Shown here piece by piece: positions 1 to 14,067 of a DNA stretch of 14,067 nt. This DNA comes from Actinomycetota bacterium. Lineage in GTDB: Bacteria; Actinomycetota; Thermoleophilia; Solirubrobacterales; 70-9. The notes under the pieces were generated by a model. That model saw only the letters and a list, made by a program, of their open reading frames with translations. It was not told the origin of the DNA and did no database searches. The stretch covers positions 1-14,067 of the forward strand of contig VAYL01000137.1 in assembly GCA_005884305.1 (NCBI GenBank), in the 5' to 3' direction. Both the position numbers and the translations under genes were made by a program. How positions within the stretch are numbered: position 1 is the stretch's first letter; every line of letters starts with the position of its first letter.

Positions 1-2
1 AA

Positions 3-979
<977 letters not shown>

Positions 980-1049
980 CGCCGCCGCCGGTCAGCGCCC
1001 CGAACGAGGCACGTAGGAGACGTAACTGTGTGTACCGGCGCCCGGGTAA

Positions 1050-1097
1050 GCATTGACGGGGTTAGGGACACTATGGCGTCCTCAACCCCGTCAATGC
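1050..1097. terminator. Long hairpin between convergent mdh and the AT-hook gene
   Basis: A perfect 14-bp inverted repeat (GCATTGACGGGGTT at 1050-1063, complement at 1084-1097) continues inward, after one mismatch and one G-T wobble, with four more pairs (1066-1069 with 1078-1081). The loop is about 8 nt (1070-1077). It sits tail-to-tail between mdh (+) and the gene at 1183-1548 (-), so a bidirectional terminator is the simplest reading. There is no U-tract on either side, so it would be a tail-less hairpin of the kind proposed in high-GC actinobacteria. An RNA-processing or protein-binding site is the alternative. Confidence 0.55.
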
Positions 1098-1182
1098 TGC
1101 TCCTGCCGCAGCGCTGCCCTACTTGCGAAATCCCCGTAAGGCTGGAACGCCGATCAGGCTCGCGACTTGAACGTTGTCGTCC

Positions 1183-1548
1183 TTACGTCGCGGTGTAAGA
1201 GCGCCCTGACTTCTTGACCCGGCCTTCCTTCTGCAGGTCGCCGAGCACCCGGTACAGGTAGTTCGGCTGGATGCTCATCTTCCGGGCGACCTCCGACGCG
1301 GTGATGCCGGGGTTCTGCTTGATCAGCTTGACCGCCTGGTCGGCGCGGGTTCCGCCCCTCCGGCGGCGGCGCCTGCGCGTTGCCCCGCTCGTCGATCCGC
1401 GCGGGCGGCCCGGGCCGCGGCGGCCCTGGCGGCCGTCGGTGAGGTTCGCGAGCGCTCGCTGCAGCTTCGAGAGCTCCGACTCGAGCTCTCTGATCCGCTC
1501 CTTCAGAAGCGTGGCCGCCTGATCGACCGCGCTGGACGCTGGTGCCAT
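1183..1548 (-). CDS. Small DNA-binding protein: coiled coil, AT-hook-like Arg-rich linker, winged helix
   Basis: 121 residues from the ATG at 1548, chosen because AAAGGA (minus strand, 1560-1555) lies 6 nt upstream and the reading further upstream looks non-coding. Residues about 8-37 form a heptad-like amphipathic helix, probably for dimerisation. Residues 42-51 (GRRGPGRPRG) contain a GRP core typical of AT-hooks and are followed by seven consecutive arginines (58-64). Residues about 69-121 form a helix-turn-helix/winged-helix fold (ITASEVARKMSIQPNYLYRV, then LQKEGRVKKSGRSY). The overall charge is strongly basic. The protein probably binds the minor groove together with a sequence- or structure-specific site, as a nucleoid-associated protein or local regulator. 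Its target is unknown. The upstream palindrome at 1594-1609 could be an autoregulatory operator (inference). Confidence 0.85.
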   Translation of the reverse strand: MAPASSAVDQAATLLKERIRELESELSKLQRALANLTDGRQGRRGPGRPRGSTSGATRRRRRRRGGTRADQAVKLIKQNPGITASEVARKMSIQPNYLYRVLGDLQKEGRVKKSGRSYTAT

Positions 1549-1593
1549 CGAAAATCCTTTCGGTTTATGCGAGGGGAATAGGTAGGCGCGAGA

Positions 1594-1609
1594 GTGTGAC
1601 ACCTCACAC
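1594..1609. promoter_or_regulatory. Palindrome GTGTGA-N4-TCACAC upstream of the AT-hook gene
   Basis: Perfect 6-bp half sites (1594-1599 and 1604-1609) lie 46-61 nt upstream of the ATG at 1548, a likely promoter position. The half sites look like those of CRP-family regulators (TGTGA/TCACA), but the spacer is 4 nt rather than the usual 6, so it may belong to another dimeric regulator, including the adjacent AT-hook/winged-helix protein itself. Confidence 0.4.
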
Positions 1610-1635
1610 CCTGTGACGCTCAATGCGTAAGTGTG

Positions 1636-2259
1636 TCAGTAACGCCGCTTGCGGGGAAGCGTTCTGAACACCACGTCCCACAGCGGCGATGAAACACCGT
1701 AGCCGTACCTGTGGTCCTGGAAGTGGTGGCGCATGTGCTGCTCGCGCAGCTGCTTGCCCAGCTGCGTCTTCGGGGTGTGGTGGTGCACGTGGTAGTGCGT
1801 GTAGTCGTAGAAGAGGTAGCCGATGATGAATCCGGCGAAGATCGGGTAGGCGGCCGGCGTTCCGAAGATCAGCGTGTAGATGAAGAGGAAGAGGGCCGCG
1901 AGCGGAACGCTCACCGCCGGCGGCATCACGAGCCGCAGGCGGTCGTTGGGATGGTCGTGGTGGATCCCGTGGATGATGAAGTGAAGGCGGCTTCCGATCG
2001 GATGGTCGGGCTCCCAGTGGAAGACCAGCCGGTGAAGCCAGTACTCGGTGAGCGTCCAGATCAGGAGCCCGAGCGCCACGAAGCCGATCACCGCGAGCGC
2101 GCCGTAGCCGCCGTCGGCGCCGAGCCAGATCCCGGCTCCGACGACGGGTACGAAGATGATCGCGGGCACGGACGGGTGGATCCGCGAGAAGAAGTCGAGG
2201 AACCGGTTGTCGAAAAGGGGCGGCGAGGCGCTCAAGCGGGCTGTTCGCTGCTGTGCCAT
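1636..2259 (-). CDS. FA2H/sterol desaturase-like di-iron fatty acid hydroxylase
   Basis: 207-residue integral membrane protein of the fatty acid hydroxylase superfamily, closest in motif pattern to fatty acid 2-hydroxylases (Scs7/FA2H catalytic domain). It has the full histidine cluster set: H76 and H81 (HRLVFH), H97/H100/H101/H103 (HGIHHDHPND), H155/H157/H159 (YTHYHVHHH), and H175/H178/H179/H183 (QHMRHHFQDH) followed by YGVSSPLWDVVF. Hydrophobic stretches at about 32-48, 52-70, 116-133 and 138-152 would form the membrane helices. The expected reaction is O2-dependent hydroxylation of an acyl chain or lipid. Substrate and electron donor are not visible, and there is no cytochrome b5 domain, as is usual for bacterial versions. 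The start at 2259 is supported by a TAAAAT box 8 nt upstream. The AT-hook gene follows in the same direction after 87 bp. Confidence 0.9.
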   Translation of the reverse strand: MAQQRTARLSASPPLFDNRFLDFFSRIHPSVPAIIFVPVVGAGIWLGADGGYGALAVIGFVALGLLIWTLTEYWLHRLVFHWEPDHPIGSRLHFIIHGIHHDHPNDRLRLVMPPAVSVPLAALFLFIYTLIFGTPAAYPIFAGFIIGYLFYDYTHYHVHHHTPKTQLGKQLREQHMRHHFQDHRYGYGVSSPLWDVVFRTLPRKRRY

Positions 2260-2267
2260 CGGGAAGA

Positions 2268-2273
2268 ATTTTA
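2268..2273 (-). promoter_or_regulatory. -10-like TAAAAT directly before the FA2H-like start
   Basis: On the minus strand TAAAAT (2273-2268) ends 8 nt before the ATG at 2259. No Shine-Dalgarno sequence lies between. This predicts transcription starting at or next to the start codon, giving a leaderless mRNA. Confidence 0.5.
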
Positions 2274-2314
2274 TCGACGCCCCGTTCGCCTTTCCGCAAA
2301 GGCCGGGAATCCGA

Positions 2315-2381
2315 AAATCGCCGTCGCCGAAAAAGGCGGCGATTTGCGCAAACCCGCCCTGCGGCCTTCACCGGCCGGTGA
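2315..2381. promoter_or_regulatory. Palindrome cluster in the divergent spacer 2260-2425
   Basis: The 166-bp spacer between the FA2H-like gene (-) and the small Cys protein gene (+) holds three inverted repeats. AAATCGCCG (2315-2323) pairs with CGGCGATTT (2337-2345). TTTGCGCAAA is a perfect 10-bp palindrome at 2343-2352. TCACCGGCCGGTGA is a perfect 14-bp palindrome at 2368-2381. They lie where regulators of either gene could bind. No specific regulator can be named. Confidence 0.4.
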
Positions 2382-2425
2382 CATGATCGGCGCACGGGCA
2401 TGGAGACGACGAACTCGGAGAGGCA

Positions 2426-2686
2426 ATGAGTACGAGAGGGACAGGCGGACCGGCGATGGAGATGGCGGACGTGATCGGGCTGGCGCGGCGGCGCGCGAGC
2501 AAGCGGCGGAAGGGCCGGCCGAACTGCGTCGACTGCTTCTTCCACTGCAACATGCTCTGCGCCCTGGACCTGGACGAGCCCTGCTCGACCTTCCGCCCGA
2601 ACACGGAGGACGGGCTCGTGCCGCCACGCCAGCCGTCGCTGCTGTTGCGCGAGGCTCCCGACGAGGCGCCCGCCCAGGCAGCCTGA
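2426..2686 (+). CDS. Small cysteine-rich hypothetical protein
   Basis: 86 residues; the family is not recognised. The ATG at 2426 is supported by GGAGAGG at 2417-2423. After a basic segment (RRRASKRRKGRP, about 21-32) comes a compact Cys/His motif: C34-X2-C37-X2-H40-C41-X3-C45-X7-C53. The C-terminus is acidic and Pro-rich, probably disordered. Spacing and density of Cys/His suggest a metal- or Fe-S-binding knuckle or a disulfide/redox motif, but no known zinc-finger pattern fits cleanly. It reads divergently from the FA2H-like gene and ends 20 bp before the cNMP-binding gene, in the same direction. Codon use and a real Shine-Dalgarno site make it a probable gene. Confidence 0.7.
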   Translation: MSTRGTGGPAMEMADVIGLARRRASKRRKGRPNCVDCFFHCNMLCALDLDEPCSTFRPNTEDGLVPPRQPSLLLREAPDEAPAQAA

Positions 2687-2693
2687 GCCCGCT

Positions 2694-2699
2694 TAGAAT
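2694..2699 (+). promoter_or_regulatory. -10-like TAGAAT directly before the cNMP-binding gene
   Basis: TAGAAT ends 7 nt before the ATG at 2707, and no Shine-Dalgarno sequence precedes that ATG. The box lies just after the stop codon of the Cys-rich gene (2684-2686), so the cNMP gene probably has its own promoter and a leaderless transcript. Confidence 0.5.
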
Positions 2700-2706
2700 C
2701 CCCTGG

Positions 2707-3126
2707 ATGGCCGACCTAGTCCAGAGTCTCAAGACCGTTCCGCTGTTCGCCGGCGTTGGGGATCGGGAGCTGAAGCGTCTCGCGAACGTGATGCGCGAGA
2801 GTCGGTTCAACGAGGGCGAGGCGATCACGACCGAGGGGCGTAGCGGGATCGGCTTCTTCCTGATCGAGGACGGCAACGCCTCCGTCAGCCTTCACGGCGA
2901 GATCATCCGCACTCTCGGGCCCGGCGACCACTTCGGCGAGATCGCGCTGATCGACGAGGGACCGCGCTCGGCGACGGTCACCGCCGGCACCGATCTTCGC
3001 TGCCGCGGGATGGCGGCCTGGGAGTTTCGCTCCTTCGTCCAGGAGCACCCCGAGGTCGCCTGGCCGTTGCTCCAGACGCTCGCCTCGCGTTTGCGCGAGG
3101 CCGAAGTCCGCGGCGCCGACGAGTAG
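2707..3126 (+). CDS. Stand-alone cyclic nucleotide-binding domain protein
   Basis: 139 residues, nearly all one cNMP-binding beta-barrel of the CRP/PKA-R type. It begins with a helix (LKTVPLFAGVGDRELKRLA). The barrel includes FNEGEAITTEG and GFFLIEDGNASVSL. The phosphate-binding cassette FGEIALIDEGPRSATVTA carries E78 (ribose contact) and R87 (phosphate contact), so ligand binding should be intact. The C-terminal helix is about 110-135. There is no DNA-binding, kinase or channel domain, so it is probably a binding module acting on a partner protein. It ends 6 bp from the stop codon of the convergent cyclase gene on the other strand. Its position next to two cyclases and a probable phosphodiesterase suggests it senses their product (inference). 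Confidence 0.92.
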   Translation: MADLVQSLKTVPLFAGVGDRELKRLANVMRESRFNEGEAITTEGRSGIGFFLIEDGNASVSLHGEIIRTLGPGDHFGEIALIDEGPRSATVTAGTDLRCRGMAAWEFRSFVQEHPEVAWPLLQTLASRLREAEVRGADE

Positions 3127-3132
3127 TACGGC

Positions 3133-6100
3133 CTACGCCGCCAGCGTCGGCTCTACCGGCACAGTGGCACCGAGTGCGTTCAGCCTCCGCTCGGCCTCGG
3201 CTCGAGCGCTTCCGCCCAGGAGGCATCCGGTTCGCGCCGCCTGGTAGGGGCATTCGATGTCCACGAACAGGGACAGAGCCTCGCGAATCGCTTCCTCGTC
3301 GTCATCGCGAAGGCCTTTGGCGCGCAGCAGGACGCCGCGTGCGTACCGGTGATCGCCGATCATCCCCTCCGCCTCGGCGAGGGCATCATCGGCTTCGAGG
3401 TTGCGCGCACGGAGCATGGCCTCGCCGCGCGTAACCGCATAGATGGCCCGCCACCAGAAGGTCTCCCTAGGGGGCTGGGCGACGCGGTCGGCCGCTTCTC
3501 GAAAGTGTCCGCAATGGAGATCGACCTCCGACTGCAGAAGCAGGACTCCGGATCGCTGCCCGGCGGTGGGCGGCGCGATGCTCCGGGCGAAGTCGAACCA
3601 GTCGGCCGCGGCGCCCTCGTCCCCGCGGTATCCGTGGATCGCGCCGGCGCATGCGACCGCGGCGGCTAAAGCCGCGATGGGCGGCCGGTCGGCGGCGGTC
3701 CACGCCTCGCGCAGCTGCGTCGCCATCTCGAGCGCGCTGTCCCACTGTCCCAGGAAGAACGCCGGCAGGAGCCCGCGTGCCCAGCCGGAGTAAACCGCGC
3801 CGATCGAGAGGTCCAGCTCGCGAGCCTGGGCCGCGTACTTGGCAGCCGACCGGTAGTCGCCGGTCGCCACGAGCGACTCGATGATCATGTGGAGGGCGTC
3901 GCTGCGCTCGGGTCCAAGCTGCACCCCGCCCCTCTCCTTCGCCAGGAGCTCGATGCGCTCGCGGTTGTGCTCCACAGCGTCGCGGTACCGCCCCTCATGC
4001 CAGGCCACGGCCGACATGGCATCGAGCGCGTTGGACAGCAGCGCCGGATCGTGAGCGTCGCGCGCCAGGTCCCAGCCCTCCTGCGCCGATCGCGCCATGT
4101 CATCCCAGTCTCCAAACCGCCATTCGATCCACGTCTCGTCGAGTCGCAGACGAGCCCGCGTCGCGACGTCGTCATCCCCGACGAGCTCGTTGCCGCGACG
4201 AAGCATGCGATCGACCTCATCGCGCGGGAGGGTCCCGGTGATGCCGCCCATCCTCGCGATGACCTCGACGAGACGGGCGTAGGTGACGGCGGCCTCGTCT
4301 CGGAGGCCGGCCTCCTCCGACACCTCGGCCGCCTCACGGAGCAGCCGCAGAGTGTCGTCTCCCCGCCACCGGTGGAGCGCAAGGTCGCCGGCGAAGCGCA
4401 GCGCGGCGACCTGATCCTGGGGGGTGTCGGCCAGCTCCGCCGCCTGCTCGAAGAGCTCCTGCGCGCGTGCCATCGCTCCGCGCCTGGCCGCGACCGCGGC
4501 GGCCTCGAGACTCGCGAGGCGGGCAGCGTCCTTGTGGTCAGGCGTCGGAGCGAGCTCGGCGGCCTGGACGCGGTGATACGCGACGAGCTCCGCCAGCTCC
4601 GGGAAGCGCTCGCCCGCGCGTCCCAGGATGCCGTCCGCGGCCCGCTCATGAAGCGTGGCGCGCTCGGCGCGGGGGAGGGAGGCGTACGCGACGTCGCGGA
4701 TCAGGTGATGTCGAAACCCGTAGCGACCCGGCCCGATGGCGAGGCGCTCCTGCACGAGCGCCTTCTGCGTCAGCGCGGCGAGGGCCTCTGTCGATGAGGA
4801 GCCGAGCAGGTCGTCCAGGGCCACCTTGAGAAAGTTGGGGCCCAGCACCGACGCGTGTTGGAGCACCCGCTTCTCATCAGGGGGCACGAGGTCCAGGCGG
4901 GCGGCGACCGCCGCCTGCACGGTGTCGGGCAGCTGGTGGAGCGCGCCACGCCGGCCATCGACGATCGCCTGCGCGACCTCCTCGGCGAAGAACGGGTTGC
5001 CTCCCGAGGCCCGCGCGACGCGCCCGGCGAGGCGGCGTTCCTCGGGTGGCAGCAGCGCGACCGCCAGCTCGTCGGTCGCTTCGGTCGTCAGGGGGCGAAG
5101 CTCGACCTGAGTGACGTTCCGCGCCGCCCGGCCGAAGTCAGATCGGCGTTCGAGCAGCTCGGGGCGGCTGGTGCACAGCACGACCAGCGGCACGTCGTCC
5201 AGCCGGAAGACCACTTCCTCGACCAGGTCGAGGAGGCCGTCATCGGCCCAGTGGGCGTCGTCGATCCCGATCACAAGCGGCCGCTGGCGAGCCAGCAGGG
5301 CGACCAGCCGCCGCCACGCGTGCTTGAGCTCGTCCTCCACGTCGCCGTCGCGCTCTTCGCCGCCGCCGAGGGCGGTCGCCAGGGCGCGGGCCAGGTCGTG
5401 CGCGTCGCCCGCGCCAAGTCCTTCGAGCCGCTCCGCGAGCCGATCGTGCACAGTCGCGACGGAATCGTCCATGGTGGCCCCCGCGGCGCTGCGCACGATC
5501 TCCCCGAGCGCCCAGAAGGCGATGCCCCTCCCGTACGGCGGGTTTCTGCCCAGCAGGATCTCGGGGGCCGGATCGGCCACGGCGAGGCGCTCCGTGAACT
5601 CGCTCGCCAAGCGCGTCTTGCCAACCCCGGTGTCGCCGGTGATCGTCACCAGCTCGGGGACGCGATCGCGAACCGAGCGCCGGTAGACGATCTCCAGCAT
5701 CGCCATGTCGTCGGCGCGCCCGACGAACGGGGCGCTGGTCGGGGCGCGCTCGCCGCGCGCGCATTGCGCCCGCCAGGCTCGAAGCGGTGCGGGGAAGCCC
5801 TTCGCCTCGATGGCGTCGATCTCGCTCATGTCCGAGGCCCGGCACGCCCGCGCGGCCCGCTCGCCCACCAGCACCTCGCCCGGCTGGGCCGCCTGCTGGA
5901 GCCGCGCCGCGGCGTTCACGGCCTCACCGGTCACCGAGAGGTCGCCGGAACGCTCGAGCGCCAGTACCTCGCCGGTCTCGATGCCGATCCTGACGTCCAG
6001 CCCCTGATTCATGGCGCGCACGCGCTCCGTCAGCACCAGCGCGGCGGCGACGGCGCGGTCGGGATCGTCGCCGTGCGTCACCGGCACGCCGAACACGGCC

Positions 6101-6369
6101 ATCACCGCGTCGCCCACGTACTTCTCCAACGTTCCCCCGTGCTCCTCGAGGGCGGTTTGAGCCACCTGGAAGAACGGCGCGAGGCGTCCGCGAAGCTCCT
6201 CGGGGTCCAGATTCGACGCCAGCTGGGTGGAGTCGACCAGGTCGGCGAAGACCATCGTCGCGAGCTTTCGCTCGGCTCCCGCGAGCTCGCCAAGGGGCGC
6301 TCCGCACGACGCGCAGAAGCGCGCATCGTCGTCCGCCGTAGCACCGCAACGAGCACAGGTCTGAGCCAT
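3133..6369 (-). CDS. Zinc ribbon - class III nucleotide cyclase - AAA ATPase - TPR signalling protein (cyclase A)
   Basis: 1078 residues from the ATG at 6369. An N-terminal zinc ribbon (C5, C8, C19, C22) is followed by a class III adenylate/guanylate cyclase domain at about 33-200. Metal-binding D43 (FADLVDST) and D87 (EKYVGDAVMAVFG), base-contacting K83, and transition-state N152 and R156 (VNAAARL) are all present, so activity is likely. The usual second base-specifying residue, Asp, is Ser145. Next is an AfsR/AAA_16-like ATPase: FVGR at 215-218, Walker A GDTGVGKT at 245-252 and Walker B VIGIDDAHWAD at 366-376. From about 600 to the end it is alpha-helical, TPR-like. No membrane segment or LuxR domain is seen. 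It probably makes cAMP or a related nucleotide under control of the ATPase/TPR part. It is divergent from the MBL hydrolase gene and convergent with the cNMP-binding gene. Confidence 0.93.
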   Translation of the reverse strand: MAQTCARCGATADDDARFCASCGAPLGELAGAERKLATMVFADLVDSTQLASNLDPEELRGRLAPFFQVAQTALEEHGGTLEKYVGDAVMAVFGVPVTHGDDPDRAVAAALVLTERVRAMNQGLDVRIGIETGEVLALERSGDLSVTGEAVNAAARLQQAAQPGEVLVGERAARACRASDMSEIDAIEAKGFPAPLRAWRAQCARGERAPTSAPFVGRADDMAMLEIVYRRSVRDRVPELVTITGDTGVGKTRLASEFTERLAVADPAPEILLGRNPPYGRGIAFWALGEIVRSAAGATMDDSVATVHDRLAERLEGLGAGDAHDLARALATALGGGEERDGDVEDELKHAWRRLVALLARQRPLVIGIDDAHWADDGLLDLVEEVVFRLDDVPLVVLCTSRPELLERRSDFGRAARNVTQVELRPLTTEATDELAVALLPPEERRLAGRVARASGGNPFFAEEVAQAIVDGRRGALHQLPDTVQAAVAARLDLVPPDEKRVLQHASVLGPNFLKVALDDLLGSSSTEALAALTQKALVQERLAIGPGRYGFRHHLIRDVAYASLPRAERATLHERAADGILGRAGERFPELAELVAYHRVQAAELAPTPDHKDAARLASLEAAAVAARRGAMARAQELFEQAAELADTPQDQVAALRFAGDLALHRWRGDDTLRLLREAAEVSEEAGLRDEAAVTYARLVEVIARMGGITGTLPRDEVDRMLRRGNELVGDDDVATRARLRLDETWIEWRFGDWDDMARSAQEGWDLARDAHDPALLSNALDAMSAVAWHEGRYRDAVEHNRERIELLAKERGGVQLGPERSDALHMIIESLVATGDYRSAAKYAAQARELDLSIGAVYSGWARGLLPAFFLGQWDSALEMATQLREAWTAADRPPIAALAAAVACAGAIHGYRGDEGAAADWFDFARSIAPPTAGQRSGVLLLQSEVDLHCGHFREAADRVAQPPRETFWWRAIYAVTRGEAMLRARNLEADDALAEAEGMIGDHRYARGVLLRAKGLRDDDEEAIREALSLFVDIECPYQAARTGCLLGGSARAEAERRLNALGATVPVEPTLAA

Positions 6370-6375
6370 GGGATC

Positions 6376-6381
6376 ACGATA
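6376..6381 (-). promoter_or_regulatory. -10-like TATCGT directly before cyclase A
   Basis: On the minus strand TATCGT (6381-6376) ends 6 nt before the ATG at 6369, with no Shine-Dalgarno sequence, again fitting a leaderless transcript. The 98-bp spacer to the divergent hydrolase gene also holds the 8-bp palindrome ATTGCAAT (6411-6418), roughly midway, where a shared regulator could sit. Confidence 0.5.
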
Positions 6382-6453
6382 GCCCGACCAAAGGCGTGAT
6401 CGGTTGCCGAATTGCAATGGTCCGGGCGGACAGGCGCGGGCGGGGCCCAGGAC

Positions 6454-6459
6454 TACAGT
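6454..6459 (+). promoter_or_regulatory. -10-like TACAGT directly before the MBL hydrolase gene
   Basis: TACAGT ends 8 nt before the ATG at 6468. No Shine-Dalgarno sequence precedes that ATG, so the predicted transcript is leaderless or nearly so. It would also cover cyclase B downstream. Confidence 0.5.
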
Positions 6460-6467
6460 TGGTTGCG

Positions 6468-7262
6468 ATGCGGATCACCGTGCTGGGGAAGTCCCCGTCT
6501 TGGCAGGACGCCGGGGGCGCATGCAGCGGGTACCTGGTCACCGACGGCGAGACCAAGCTCTTGCTCGATTGCGGCAACGGCGTCTTCGCGAAGCTCCGCC
6601 AGCACGTCGACTACGTCGACGTCCACGCGATCCTCATCTCGCACCTCCACGCCGATCACATCCTCGACCTCGTTCCGTACGCGTATGCGCTCACCTACGC
6701 GCCGCGCCAGCAACCCGTCCCGGTCGGCGGATACCCCGGGACCGACAATCCCGCCCGCCCCCGGCTGATTGCGCCCTCGGGCGCCACCGAGTGCTTCCGC
6801 CGGCTGACGGGCTCGTGGGGCAGCGAGGACCTGATCACAAACGCCTTTGCGATCGAGGAGTACGACGCGGAATCCACGGTGGAGGTTGGAACCCTGCGGG
6901 CCCGATTCAAGGAGGTGCCGCACTTCACCACCACGTACGCGGTCGACTTCAGCTCCCAGAACGGCTCCGGCCGGTTCACCTACAGCGCCGACTGCCGTCC
7001 CGGCGAGGAGCTCGTCGAGATCGCGCGCGACACCGACCTCCTGCTCGTCGAAGCGACCCTGCCGCGGCCCGAGCGGACCGGCGACCGGGGCCACCTGACC
7101 CCGGCAGAGGCGGGCGACCACGCGCGACGGGCCGGCGCCCACCGCGTCGTGCTGACCCACATCTCGGATGAGCTCGACGCCGATTGGGCCAGGCGGGAGG
7201 GCTCGGAGGCCTACGGGGGCGAGGTCGAGATGGCGGAGGAGGGCGCGACCTATGAAGTGTGA
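6468..7262 (+). CDS. MBL-fold metallohydrolase, YhfI/Rv1339-like; candidate cyclic nucleotide phosphodiesterase
   Basis: 264 residues from the ATG at 6468, where family similarity begins (MRITVLGKSP...GGACSGYLV, like the MRITVLGCSG opening of Rv1339-type proteins). Metal ligands visible are the HLHADH motif (H59, H61, D63, H64), the His of VPHFTTTYAVDF, the Asp of YSADCRPGEEL, and the final His of VVLTHISDELD; GHLTPAEAG is another family signature. The fold is that of RNase Z/phosphodiesterase-type metallo-beta-lactamases without the extra RNase Z arm. The M. tuberculosis homologue type Rv1339 has been reported to hydrolyse cAMP. The location between two class III cyclase genes makes a phosphodiesterase role attractive, but it remains inference; a different phosphodiester or ester substrate is possible. 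Cyclase B follows after 42 bp, probably in the same transcript. Confidence 0.87.
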   Translation: MRITVLGKSPSWQDAGGACSGYLVTDGETKLLLDCGNGVFAKLRQHVDYVDVHAILISHLHADHILDLVPYAYALTYAPRQQPVPVGGYPGTDNPARPRLIAPSGATECFRRLTGSWGSEDLITNAFAIEEYDAESTVEVGTLRARFKEVPHFTTTYAVDFSSQNGSGRFTYSADCRPGEELVEIARDTDLLLVEATLPRPERTGDRGHLTPAEAGDHARRAGAHRVVLTHISDELDADWARREGSEAYGGEVEMAEEGATYEV

Positions 7263-7304
7263 GCGTAAGGTTCCGCCGGTGAGCAGGGAGGGCACAGCCG
7301 GCCG

Positions 7305-10300
7305 ATGAAGTGCCCCGCATGCGGCACCGAGAACCGCTCCGGGCGGCGGTTCTGTGCGCAGTGCGGTACCGCATTGGAGGCCGTCTGCCCCAGCTGCGGC
7401 ACAGCAAACGATCCCGGCGATCGCTTCTGCGGCGCGTGCGGCACCGCGCTCGTCACGGGCGCGTCCCGAGCCCCCGAGCCGGGTCAGCCGCCGGTCTCCG
7501 AACGGCGCCTGGTCTCGGTGCTGTTCGCCGACCTCGTCGGATTCACGACGCTCTCGGAGTACCGCGACCCCGAGGAGGTCCGCGAGCTCCTGGGCCAGTA
7601 CTTCGATCGCTGCCGCACCCTGATCGAGCAATTCGGCGGCACCGTCGAGAAGTTCATCGGCGACGCGGTGATGGCCGTCTGGGGATCGCCGGTGGCGCGC
7701 GAGGACGACGCCGAGCGGGCGGTGCGGGCCGCCCTCGCGATCGCGCAGGCGGTCACCGCGCTCGGGGACGCGGCCGGCATGCCGGACCTTCGCGCCAGGG
7801 CGGGCGTGCTGACGGGATCCGCCGCCGTGGAGATCGGTGCCCGCAGCGAGGCGATGGTGATGGGCGACACCGTCAACGCCGCCTCGCGGCTCCAGGGGAT
7901 CGCGGAGCCCGGAACGGTCCTCGTGGACGACGCAACGCGCGCCGCGACGGAGGCGGCGGTCGCCTACGAGGACGCCGGCACCCACCTCCTGAAGGGCCGC
8001 GACGATCCGATCAAGGCGTGGACCGCGTTGCGGGTGGTGGCGGGTGCCAGGGGCGCCAGGCGCAGCGTCGGCCTGGAGGCACCGTTCGTAGGCCGCGCCG
8101 CCGACCTGCAACTGATCATCTCGGCGCTCGACGAGAGCCTCCGCGAGCGCAGGGCGAGGCTGGTGACGGTCCTGGGCGAGGCGGGATTCGGGAAGTCACG
8201 GCTGCTCTGGGAGTTCTTCAAGCACATCGACGGCATCGAGGCGGAGATCCACTGGCATCAGGGCCGCTCGCTCGCGTACGGGGAAGGCGTGGCCTACTGG
8301 GCGCTCACCGAGATGGTTCGCTCCCGTGCGGGCATCACCGAAGACGAGTCCCCTGAGTCGGCCCGGCGGAAGCTTCGCGAGACGATCGAGCGCTACGTGG
8401 CCGACGAGCGTGAGCGCCGTCTGATCGAGCCGCGGCTCGCCCATCTGCTCGGCCTCGAGGAGCGCGTCGCGCCCGACCGGGCGGACCTGTTCTCGGGTTG
8501 GCGGCTCTTCTTCGAGCGGATCGCCGGCGCCGACCCGGTGGTGCTGGTCTTCGAGGACCTCCACTGGGCGGACTCCGGAATGCTCGACTTCATCGACTAC
8601 CTGCTCGAGTGGTCGGCCGACTTCCCGATCTTCATCCTGGTGCTGGCCCGGCCCGACTTCGAGGAGATGCGCCCCATCTGGGAGACGACGATCCAGCTCG
8701 GCGCCCTGCCTGACGAGGTGATGGGTGAGCTCCTGGAGGGCCTGGTACCGGGCCTGCCGCCGGAGCTCAGCGAGCGCATCCGCGAGCGGGCCGAGGGCGT
8801 GCCGCTATACGCCGTCGAGACCGTGCGGATGCTGCTGGATCGCGGCCTCCTGGCGCAGAGGGGGTCCCGGTACGTGGTGACCGGGGAGGTCGAGGAGCTC
8901 GACGTGCCGGAGACCCTCCAGGCCCTGGTCGCGGCGCGGCTCGACGGTCTCGAACCCGCGGAGCGCTCGGTCGTGCAGGACGCGGCCGTCCTGGGTCAGA
9001 GCTTCACCCCACCGGCCGTCGCCGCGGTCGGGGGCCGAGCGGTGGCCGAGGCCGAGGAGCTCCTCGGCCGACTCGTCTCCAAGCAGGTCCTCGCTTACCA
9101 GGACGACCCACGATCGGCCGAGCGCGGCCAGTACTCGTTCCTTCAGGCGCTGCTGCGCGGCGTCGCGTACGGCACGCTCTCGCGCCGCGATCGCAAGGCG
9201 CGGCACCTCGCCGCCGCGCGGTACCTCCAGGAGTCCTGGGCGGGCGACGTGGGGGAGATCGCCGAGGTCCTCGCCAGCCATTTCCTCGCCGCCGCGGAGG
9301 CCGAGCGCGATAGCGCCGACACGCCGAAGATCCGCGCGCTGGCCCGCGAGACTCTGGCGGAGGCCGGCCGGCGCGCCGCCTCGCTCGCGCTCGGCCGGGA
9401 GGCGCAGCGCAGCTACGACAAGGCGGTCGAGCTCGCCGAGGACGACGACACGCGCGCGACGTTGCTCGAGCAGGCCGGTCGCGCCGCTTGGCTGGCGGGT
9501 GACGCCGCCGCCTCGCAAGAGCGACTGAACCCCGCGATCGAGCTGTATGAGGCCGCCGGCGTCACGGAGGCCGCGGCGCGGGCCAGCATCGTGCTGGCCG
9601 AGACGTTCATCACCCTCAATCGCCTCGAGGAGGGCGTGAGCCTGATCGAGCGGGCGCTGACGAGCCTGCCGGAAGCCAGCGAGGATCGTGCGGCGACGGC
9701 AGCGCAGCTGGGGCGGTTCCTGTTTCTTCGCGGCGATGTCCCCGGGGCACTTCGTGCGACGGAGGAAGCGCTCGCGATCGCGGAGCCGCTCCAGGCATGG
9801 GAGGTACTGGCGGGAGCGCTCGTCGCCCGTGGAACGGCGTACTTCTCCGACGACCGACCCCAGGAGGGCGTGGCGCTGCTCCAGCACGGACTGACCCTCG
9901 CCCTCGAACACGATCTCCAGATGGTCGCGATCCGGGCGCGAAACAACCTGGCCGTCAACCTGGTCATTGCGGATCGTGCCGGAGAGGCCCTCGACGAGTT
10001 CGTGCGAGCACTGGAGCTGGCGCGGGCGCGCGGCGATCGTCCGTGGGAGCACCTGATCCTCGCCGGGATGAACCACGCCGTGTTCCGGCTGGGGAGGTGG
10101 GATGAGGCCGCAGAGAATGGCGGGCGGCTCCTCACCGAGGCCGCCGATGACCTGCCCGTGCTGACGGAGGCCGGCTTGGTGCTCGCCATGCTGTACCGCG
10201 AGCGAGGAGACCACGACGGCGTTGATCGTGTCGCCGCGATGGCCGGACGCTCCGAAACGGCCGACGCTCAGGTGCGCGACTTCGGGCTGATCGGGCAGGC

Positions 10301-10753
10301 GGTCGTGGCGCAGGCACGCGGTCGCAACGACGAGGCACTGGCGGTCATGCTCGAGTTACTCAAAGACGTCGATCCAACGAGTCGCATCTATGCCCACCGG
10401 CACGCGCTGGAGGCCGCCTGGGTGCTCGAGGACCATGCGCAGGTGCGCGCCGGTACACGGGGCTGCTCGCGGCAAGCCGGGGCGACCCGGTTGCCGGCGC
10501 CGACCAACTCGACGCGGCGATCTCCACGCTCAGCGAGCTCGGCTATCGCTACGAGATGGCGTGCGCCCTGCTCGAGCGCGGTGAGATCCTGCTCGGCACG
10601 GATCGCGGCGAGGAGGGCATCACGGCGATGCGGGAGGCCGATCACGTCTTCGCCGAGCTCGGCGCGAAGCCGATGCACGAGCGCGCGCAGCAGGCCTTGG
10701 CGGCCCGGGCCGAACCGGGCGAAGGACGCGTCGCCTCCGCCGCCTCGGGCTGA
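7305..10753 (+). CDS. Double zinc ribbon - class III nucleotide cyclase - AAA ATPase - TPR protein (cyclase B), frameshifted near the C-terminus
   Basis: Same architecture as cyclase A but with two zinc ribbons (C3/C6/C17/C20 and C28/C31/C42/C45). The cyclase domain spans about 66-245 with metal-binding D76 (FADLVGFT) and D120, base-contacting K116 (EKFIGDAVMAVWG), and catalytic N191 and R195 (VNAASRL). The position normally holding the base-specifying Asp is Met184. The ATPase has FVGR (261-264), Walker A GEAGFGKS (291-298) and Walker B VVLVFEDLHWAD (412-423). TPR-like helices run from about 650. The original frame stays open to 10760, but after about 10449 it becomes Arg/Ser-rich. The sensible sequence (RYTGLLAASRGDPVAGADQL...ELGAKPMHERAQQALAARAE) continues in the frame of 10451 to TGA at 10751-10753, so a short deletion is likely there. 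AGGGAGGG at 7285-7292 is 12 nt before the ATG, a weak Shine-Dalgarno site. Probably co-transcribed with the hydrolase. Confidence 0.9.
10446..10455 (+). other. Deletion/frameshift junction in cyclase B
   Basis: Before this point helical TPR sequence is read in the frame of 7305 (VLEDHAQVR). After it, helical sequence continues in the frame of 10451 (YTGLLAASRGDP) for 100 codons to a proper stop. A loss of 1 modulo 3 nt would restore one frame. The TPR region is too variable to state how many residues are missing. Confidence 0.7.
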
Positions 10754-10790
10754 GCGCTAGCGAGCAGAACCATCAGCATCGAGGCCCGCT

Positions 10791-10829
10791 GTCTTCGACT
10801 TGGGTCGTCCTGCGACCACAATCGAAGAC
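10791..10829. terminator. Hairpin between cyclase B and hsp20
   Basis: GTCTTCGA (10791-10798) pairs perfectly with TCGAAGAC (10822-10829). After an internal mismatch region, GGTCG (10803-10807) pairs with CGACC (10813-10817) around a 5-nt loop. It begins 38 bp after the cyclase B stop and has no U-tract. A tail-less terminator is likely. Because it ends 25 bp before the hsp20 -10-like box, an operator role is also possible. It does not match the HspR HAIR consensus well. Confidence 0.45.
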
Positions 10830-10854
10830 GGCGCGACCTAGAGGGGTCGCTGGC

Positions 10855-10860
10855 TAAGGT
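10855..10860 (+). promoter_or_regulatory. -10-like TAAGGT directly before hsp20
   Basis: TAAGGT ends 6 nt before the ATG at 10867. The intervening TGGGGC is a poor Shine-Dalgarno match and too close to the start. This fits a leaderless hsp20-lon transcript. No clear -35 box is seen at the usual distance. Confidence 0.5.
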
Positions 10861-10866
10861 TGGGGC

Positions 10867-11319
10867 ATGGCACGCGAGCGGGACCTGCTGGTCAACTTCG
10901 AGCGGATGCGCCGCGAGATGGACGAGCTGTTCGGCGACGTCTGGGGCCAGCGCAGCGTGCTCGGCCGGCGCCGCCAGACCGGGTTCACCCCGCGCGTAGA
11001 CGTCTACTACTGCGGTGACCCCCCGAAGGCGATCGTGAAGGCCGACCTGGCCGGCGTCGGCCTCGAGAGCATCGGGCTCGAGGTCGTCGGGCGCAACCTC
11101 TTGATCACCGGCGAGCGCCCGATCCAGGAGACGGAGGGCCGCACCTACCAGCAGCTGGAGATCGAGGCGGGCCAGTTCCGCCGCGTGATCGAGCTGAACG
11201 CCGATCCGGTCGCCGAGGACGCGCGGGCCACCTACGAGGACGGGATCCTGCGAGTCGAGCTGCCGCTGCGCCCCCAGAGCGCCTCTCGCCGAAGCGTTCC
11301 AATCGAAACGGAGGATTGA
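10867..11319 (+). CDS. Small heat shock protein, Hsp20/alpha-crystallin family
   Basis: 150 residues. A short N-terminal arm (FERMRREMDELFGDVWG, about 11-27) is followed by the alpha-crystallin domain at about 39-135: FTPRVDVYYCGDPPKAIVKADLAG, then LEVVGRNLLITGERP, then the conserved YEDGILRVELPL, which corresponds to the family's GVL motif. The C-terminal tail has VPI, the V/I-X-I motif that docks into neighbouring subunits. Such proteins are ATP-independent holdases that bind unfolding proteins in large oligomers. The stop codon overlaps nothing, but lon begins only 6 bp later (ATG 11326) with its GGAGG inside the hsp20 end, so the two are probably one stress operon. Confidence 0.95.
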   Translation: MARERDLLVNFERMRREMDELFGDVWGQRSVLGRRRQTGFTPRVDVYYCGDPPKAIVKADLAGVGLESIGLEVVGRNLLITGERPIQETEGRTYQQLEIEAGQFRRVIELNADPVAEDARATYEDGILRVELPLRPQSASRRSVPIETED

Positions 11320-11325
11320 ACCCTC

Positions 11326-13762
<2,437 letters not shown>

Positions 13763-13764
13763 AC

Positions 13765-13795
13765 GACCCGTGCAGGGTCAATTCGCCGGCGAATT
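13765..13795. promoter_or_regulatory. Hairpin plus 16-bp perfect palindrome after lon
   Basis: GACCC (13765-13769) and GGGTC (13775-13779) form a short hairpin 3 bp after the lon stop. It is followed at once by the perfect 16-bp palindrome AATTCGCCGGCGAATT (13780-13795). The palindrome covers the -35/spacer region relative to TATGCT at 13804-13809, so it could be an operator for the next gene, or the pair may act as a lon terminator. Confidence 0.45.
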
Positions 13796-13803
13796 TCCGG
13801 GTA

Positions 13804-13809
13804 TATGCT
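13804..13809 (+). promoter_or_regulatory. Candidate -10 box TATGCT for the last gene
   Basis: TATGCT (within GTATATGCTG) lies 34 nt before the ATG at 13844, which would give a leader of roughly 28 nt containing the Shine-Dalgarno site GAGGGAG (13831-13837). No clear -35 box is seen, because the palindrome occupies that position. Confidence 0.35.
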
Positions 13810-13843
13810 GCGCGAACGAGCCAAGCGGACGAGGGAGTTGTTG

Positions 13844-14067
13844 ATGGCAAGCACCAAGGCTGAGAAGGCGAGACAAGCCGCGCAGCAGGCGGGATCGAAC
13901 CCGTACGTGCGGCGCTTCATCGAGGACGAGGAACTCCGGACGAGCGTCAAGGAGGCCTTCGATGCCGCGAAGAACGCCTACCAGCGCATGTCCAACGGCA
14001 AGGGACCGGTCAAGGCCCTGACCGACGACAAGAAGGTCCAGCGCGATCTCGAGACCGCGGCCGAGAA
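13844..14067 (+). CDS. Small Lys/Glu-rich helical protein, 3' end outside the window
   Basis: A partial gene, open from the ATG at 13844 to the window edge (74 full codons). GAGGGAG at 13831-13837 lies 6 nt upstream. The visible part is highly charged and helical: MASTKAEKARQAAQQAG, then NPYVRRFIEDEELRTSVKEAFDAAKNAYQRM and ALTDDKKVQRDLETAAE. There is no signal peptide or membrane segment in the visible part. The family is not named. The style resembles small conserved actinobacterial proteins that end in a membrane helix, which would lie beyond the window. Confidence 0.75.
   Translation, partial: MASTKAEKARQAAQQAGSNPYVRRFIEDEELRTSVKEAFDAAKNAYQRMSNGKGPVKALTDDKKVQRDLETAAE

Follow-up and report, generated by a model that had tools for sequence, protein, structure and literature searches.

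A conserved phosphodiesterase-like gene with probably later cyclase neighbours in an actinobacterial contig

The window analysed here, a whole stretch of 14,067 nucleotides, comprises bases 1-14067 of the 16,713-base contig VAYL01000137.1, which belongs to an Actinomycetota assembly (GCA_005884305.1) of 2.35 Mb that is 73% complete. It carries four adjacent genes of cyclic nucleotide monophosphate (cNMP)-related families, which an initial annotation had described as a compact island: a stand-alone cNMP-binding protein (the sensor), two class III cyclases (A and B) and a metallo-beta-lactamase-fold hydrolase (MBL). Our results suggested, with a probability of about 0.68, that an old phosphodiesterase gene was joined at this locus by cyclase genes that came later. 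The gene layout was confirmed in the order sensor (2707..3126, + strand), cyclase A (3133..6369, - strand), MBL (6468..7262, + strand) and cyclase B (7305..10760, + strand), with no further gene in between. The stops of the sensor and cyclase A converge and are 6 bp apart (3127-3132), the starts of cyclase A and MBL diverge and are 98 bp apart, and 42 bp separate MBL from cyclase B. The strand arrangement and the spacing of the converging stops were as first described, and all four family calls were right, each supported by Pfam matches over the cut-offs.

The hydrolase gene was traced through related genomes. MBL orthologues at E<=1e-30 were present in 72 of the 101 genomes searched, that of the window included, and no match was obtained in 29, many of them from genus g12 of the window's family. 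The MBL loci of 60 of the 71 relatives were mapped (G026, G036, G045, G046, G061, G071, G081, G084, G085, G092 and G097 were left out), and the results showed a usual gene order of MDH, a winged-helix gene, often a fatty-acid hydroxylase gene in the window's family, a gene for a small Cys-rich protein (Cys86), MBL, Hsp20 and Lon. Cys86 lay within 1 kb upstream of MBL and in the same direction at 40 of the 54 loci with enough flank; among the remaining 14, it had the same direction farther upstream in 12 and was inverted in genomes G007 and G017. Hsp20 followed MBL co-directionally within 600 bp at 48/56 loci (farther downstream at five of the other eight, not seen at three), and Lon was part of the row at 49 of the 52 loci with enough flank. 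Cyclase matches within 4 kb of MBL, obtained by tblastn with two cyclase queries that divergent cyclases may escape, were found in just 3 of the 45 relatives with at least 4 kb of flank on each side, namely G007 and G017, where the match is a cyclase A orthologue, and G068, where it is an unrelated cyclase. Cyclase B was beside MBL in none of the 60 relatives, 56 of which had more than 1.5 kb downstream. Conserved adjacency of the four families in relatives had been named as one of the points on which the island would stand or fall; it was largely absent, and the four-gene island is not a conserved module.

A second set of 58 named loci, which partly overlaps the 60 relatives and reaches farther, showed the row in a looser form (Cys86 30/55, Hsp20 33/49, Lon 35/42), with a cyclase within 4 kb at one of 34 loci, L190, apparently the same locus as that of G007. 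The named records with MBL relatives were mostly Solirubrobacterales, Thermoleophilaceae and unplaced actinobacterial metagenome-assembled genomes, together with isolates of Conexibacter, Paraconexibacter, Svornostia and Solirubrobacter. On this basis, the host very probably belongs to the Solirubrobacterales. These results suggested that a tidy signalling "island" can arise via separate insertions into an older row, and they call for caution on adjacency seen in a single genome.

The history of cyclase A and the sensor was followed among 232 genomes of the order, the best few candidates per genome being scored (3 for cyclase A, 8 for the cyclase B piece described below, up to 13 in another search). 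Orthologues of cyclase A at E<=1e-200 were found in three genomes from two sister genera, namely that of the window, G007 (57% identity) and G017 (59%). In all three, cyclase A and a sensor gene convergent with it occupy the interval from Cys86 to MBL. The gap between the starts of cyclase A and MBL measures 98, about 51 and 118 bp in the window, G007 and G017, respectively. The sensor itself, at 60% identity or more, was present in four of the 232 genomes, these three and G002. The latter, of the window's genus, has an intact sensor (76%) and a cyclase A reduced to 54 codons, a remnant indicating that the sensor is able to outlast its cyclase. Two other genomes of the same genus, G001 and G003, have neither sensor nor cyclase A at this place. 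In a tree of MBL, Hsp20 and Lon with 31 taxa, the two genera were joined (bootstrap 86) and G002 was grouped with G003 (97), one node inside the window's genus being weak (49). The pN/pS ratios of the sensor, cyclase A and MBL were below 1, which speaks for purifying selection on all three. The simplest history would be a single gain of the pair in the common ancestor, with later losses; at the genus level it is based on four genomes including that of the window, of which one (G003) is more than 90% complete.

As to transcription, one report (PMC3160421) describes leaderless genes as common in Actinobacteria and as marked by TANNNT some 12 bp 5' of the start. Boxes of this type were found 6-8 nt 5' of the start codon in four genes: TAGAAT (2694..2699, + strand) 7 nt before the sensor, TATCGT (6376..6381, - strand) 6 nt before cyclase A, TACAGT (6454..6459, + strand) 8 nt before MBL and TAAGGT (10855..10860, + strand) 6 nt before Hsp20. 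No such box was seen before Cys86 or cyclase B. When the upstream sequences of those four genes were shuffled, a box appeared 5-12 nt 5' of the start in 1.5-3.9% of trials. Among the relatives, the MBL box was present in 37/60 and the Hsp20 box (5-12 nt) in all 31 with a usable start, compared with 0.5-0.6% at random positions, and the Hsp20 promoter appears to be of a very constant leaderless type. Since the boxes are separate, the genes are probably separate units rather than one operon; the row need not be an operon, and MBL to cyclase B may be the sole case of read-through.

These findings bear on the view behind the first description, that the four genes form a dedicated module which makes, degrades and senses one cyclic nucleotide and is gated by a stimulus via the ATPase and TPR parts. 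The gene families fit such a module, cyclase A and MBL stand back to back in all three genomes, so that a shared regulator of the gap is possible, and cyclase A and the sensor were kept together in two genera. However, 42 of the 45 relatives with wide flanks have no cyclase match near MBL, cyclase B adjoins it in none of the 60 relatives mapped, the promoter boxes are separate and the sensor survives cyclase A in G002. Furthermore, the window's genome contains 14 PF00211 matches, 12 of them outside the window (two, both on contig C198, are in a single frame and could represent one domain), and five PF00027 matches, the window's sensor among them, which makes a sensor serving several cyclases as plausible as a private pair. 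Taken together, we consider a dedicated four-gene module quite improbable.

Cyclase B showed a distribution of its own. With a 404-aa piece of the protein, relatives at E<=1e-110 were found in 11 other genomes of the 232, all of families f2 and f3, and no such close relative appeared in the window's family among the best eight candidates of each genome. The best of these relatives were 75% identical, and some genomes had multiple copies (7 matches in G172). A protein search gave relatives of up to 86% identity, apart from P0001, an intact 1171-aa protein near-identical to cyclase B from a 77,391-base contig. The simplest reading is that cyclase B was gained horizontally and then inserted between MBL and Hsp20. 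The initial annotation had read cyclase B as one open frame to 10753, a reading that crossed a break near 10446: the frame from 7305 ends at 10760, its last part being at odds with the family, and 10751-10753 ends a different frame, whose translation carries on the family C-terminus in a by-eye comparison with P0001. Frames are also split in MDH (27-979, break at about 400) and Lon (break at about 11,600), and three frame breaks within 14 kb make assembly error likely. We weighed whether the placement of cyclase B itself is an assembly artefact, a chimera or a collapsed repeat, for which the three breaks and the multi-copy relatives in some genomes speak. On the other side, MBL and Hsp20 flank cyclase B precisely, these two genes and the Hsp20 box being undamaged, and P0001, although known without its neighbours, is full-length and comes from a long contig. 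Such an artefact is unlikely in our judgement, and horizontal gain with insertion is kept as the simpler account.

Two loci with cyclase B relatives were observed in addition. In G066:C47 (L264, 5905-11123), the gene of the relative shares 4 bases with that of a transporter-like membrane protein carrying a cNMP domain at its C-terminus, and the two are likely a cyclase/cNMP-gated transporter operon, the transporter being read from sequence. In G069:C63 (L265, 2118-9457), the relative adjoins a protein in which two cNMP domains are apparently fused, as read from sequence alone, to a pyridoxal phosphate-dependent aminotransferase or desulfurase, and it is also accompanied by another protein with a pair of cNMP domains.

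The identity of the 264-aa MBL protein was assessed by family, signature and fold. It matched PF12706 (Lactamase_B_2) with 71.1 bits against a cut-off of 27. Atypical class-II cNMP phosphodiesterases have been defined by a [T/S]HXHXDH signature in a PF12706 protein (PMC9293780), and the SHLHADH of MBL fits this class-II signature; the residues H59, H61, D63, H64, H152, D175, H209 and H231 were invariant in 28 proteins. The signature is not exclusive, and the RNase Z of the same genome carries THYHADH. In the PDB comparison, YhfI was the top fold match, with 29% identity over the fold alignment, and was also among the two top sequence matches; MBL was nearer to YhfI/Rv1339 than to RNase Z. The score of MBL against NF041851 was 152.8 bits, below the curated cut-off of 400, which was exceeded in just 3 of 80 genomes of the phylum and was also missed by the Corynebacterium glutamicum control. 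MBL was accordingly filed as working like these enzymes and not as a member of NF041851. It shares the Lactamase_B_2 fold and the signature with YhfI of Bacillus subtilis, CpdA of C. glutamicum and Rv1339 of Mycobacterium tuberculosis, and differs from them by its Cys86-Hsp20-Lon row as well as by the identity and the score just given. The "probable breakdown" enzyme of the first description thus retained its family placement, with YhfI, CpdA and Rv1339 as the nearest proteins, and MBL is best placed with the cyclic-nucleotide phosphodiesterases as a candidate enzyme.

The frequent row raises the question why a candidate cNMP phosphodiesterase stays by heat-shock genes. One answer would be that MBL works mainly with Hsp20 and Lon in protein quality control, or on RNA, and that the adjacent cyclases are accidental. 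The frequency of the row is consistent with this, and RNase Z folds almost as near to MBL as YhfI does. We hold a main role of that kind to be unlikely. By analogy with YhfI, its nearest relative of solved structure, MBL would hydrolyse the 3',5'-cyclic forms of AMP and GMP (cAMP and cGMP), and as a phosphodiesterase it would clear them cell-wide.

The two cyclases were compared with solved and multidomain relatives. Both exceeded the PF00211 gathering score of 21.9 (cyclase A 60.1 bits, cyclase B 78.1 bits). Cyclase A (1078 aa) has a zinc ribbon, the cyclase domain, an AAA_16 ATPase and a long C-terminal region with no Pfam call, and cyclase B has a double zinc ribbon, the cyclase domain, AAA_16 and TPR. 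It had been proposed that each cyclase is joined to an ATPase and TPR repeats: AAA_16 was over the Pfam cut-off in both, but TPR in cyclase B alone (TPR_12, 31.7 versus 30.1 bits), and no TPR was listed by Pfam for cyclase A at E<=0.01. Many cyclase A homologues are labelled as TPR proteins by their source. At E<=1e-100, 7987 of 8000 scored candidates were relatives of cyclase B, and 1079 of 8000 were relatives of cyclase A. Zinc ribbon, cyclase domain, AAA_16 and, in cyclase B, TPR are shared with multidomain AAA/TPR class III cyclases ("class 3 adenylate cyclase/TPR" and the TOMM kinase/cyclase fusions of TIGR03903), whereas the match to TIGR03903 is partial and far under its cut-off.

Alignment to solved cyclases showed that both proteins have the metal Asp pair, the Lys and the Asn/Arg, in the motifs FADLV, KYVGDAVM and VNAAAR of cyclase A and FADLV, KFIGDAVM and VNAASR of cyclase B. 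In class III cyclases we take these residues to be the two metal-binding Asp, the substrate Lys and the transition-state Asn and Arg. Adenine is specified by Asp or Thr at the N-7 position, and the substrate-specifying position here is presumably the one aligned with a Thr of CyaC (1wc0). At this position cyclase A has Ser and cyclase B has Met, residues that also set them apart from the multidomain relatives named above. Ser was found in 88 of the 112 motif-bearing cyclase A homologues (8 of the 120 lack the motif), and Met in all 120 cyclase B homologues. The catalytic residues reported earlier were therefore present as far as metal, Lys and Asn/Arg are concerned, but that account omitted the substrate-specifying position. 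These residues are therefore poor guides to base specificity, to that of cyclase B above all.

The sensor, a protein of 139 aa, matched PF00027 with 56.6 bits against a cut-off of 27.5. The intact phosphate-binding cassette assigned to it (FGEIALIDEGPRSAT) was upheld, with the cassette Glu and Arg present as E78 and R87 and invariant in 13 homologues. It shares PF00027 and these two residues with domains of the CRP/PKA-R type, such as the isolated MloK1 channel domain (1vp6), but differs from such proteins in having no helix-turn-helix, channel, acyltransferase or TIR domain. The genome also encodes two other cNMP-binding proteins that stand alone, each about 150 aa long (G000:C14:13606-13998, 44% identical to the sensor, and G000:C188:5158-5523, 41%), and no cyclase match was found near either within the stretches searched. 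Among 37 loci of distant sensor relatives (34-52% identity), several of which end at contig ends, a cyclase match was seen at two (G072 and G102), about 3.6 and 3.9 kb off.

The same families, class III cyclase, cNMP receptor domain and MBL phosphodiesterase, occur in broad terms in Pycsar with Apyc1, and the locus was weighed as a Pycsar-like anti-phage system, in which the cyclase yields a cyclic pyrimidine nucleotide and the cNMP protein is the receptor. The PADLOC models PycTIR and PycC match the cNMP domain of the sensor and the cyclase domains of A and B, and a weak match of MBL to Apyc1 was obtained (E 0.0018). A Pycsar receptor carries a fused effector of TIR or membrane type, whereas Pfam shows one domain in the sensor and neither a TIR nor a membrane nor any other effector domain, and PycTIR matches it in the cNMP part only. 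In addition, the cyclases are AAA proteins of large size (about 1100 aa), the score of MBL for Apyc1 reaches 18.2 bits, far short of the cut-off of 50, Apyc1 structures rank under YhfI and RNase Z, and no phage gene was found among eight window proteins scanned with Pfam. We regard an anti-phage role of this kind as highly improbable.

Within the reading of an old phosphodiesterase gene with later neighbours, cyclase A and the sensor, alone of the cluster, may be a dedicated unit. A signal would act on the AAA or C-terminal part of cyclase A, whose cyclase domain would then make cAMP, and the sensor would bind that cAMP. Having no output domain, the sensor might act via contact with another protein or serve as a buffer for the nucleotide. 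If true, the pair would offer a compact system in which to test a bacterial cAMP receptor that lacks an output domain. A stronger form of this idea joins an ATPase-gated cyclase A and a free, contact-acting receptor as a dedicated pair tuned by the back-to-back phosphodiesterase, as one case of AAA cyclases pairing with varied cNMP-gated outputs (compare G066:C47 and G069:C63); this form has a low probability in our view.

The other row members in the window are Cys86 (2426..2686, + strand; CVDCFFHCNMLCALDLDEPCSTFR), Hsp20, a small heat-shock protein (10867..11319, + strand), and the Lon protease (11326..13762, + strand), which is in two frames in the assembly and was named by its homology to Lon on reading and by its position rather than by a family search. 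Cys86 had no Pfam or NCBIfam match, and its search gave 445 homologues, with no Pfam domain among the 120 listed. The gap between cyclase B and Hsp20 contains an imperfect 21-bp hairpin (10787-10833, 81% complementary), which the terminator scan did not list. Two records titled Bifidobacterium breve, L207 and L235, hold parts of the Solirubrobacterales row, and their titles look wrong.

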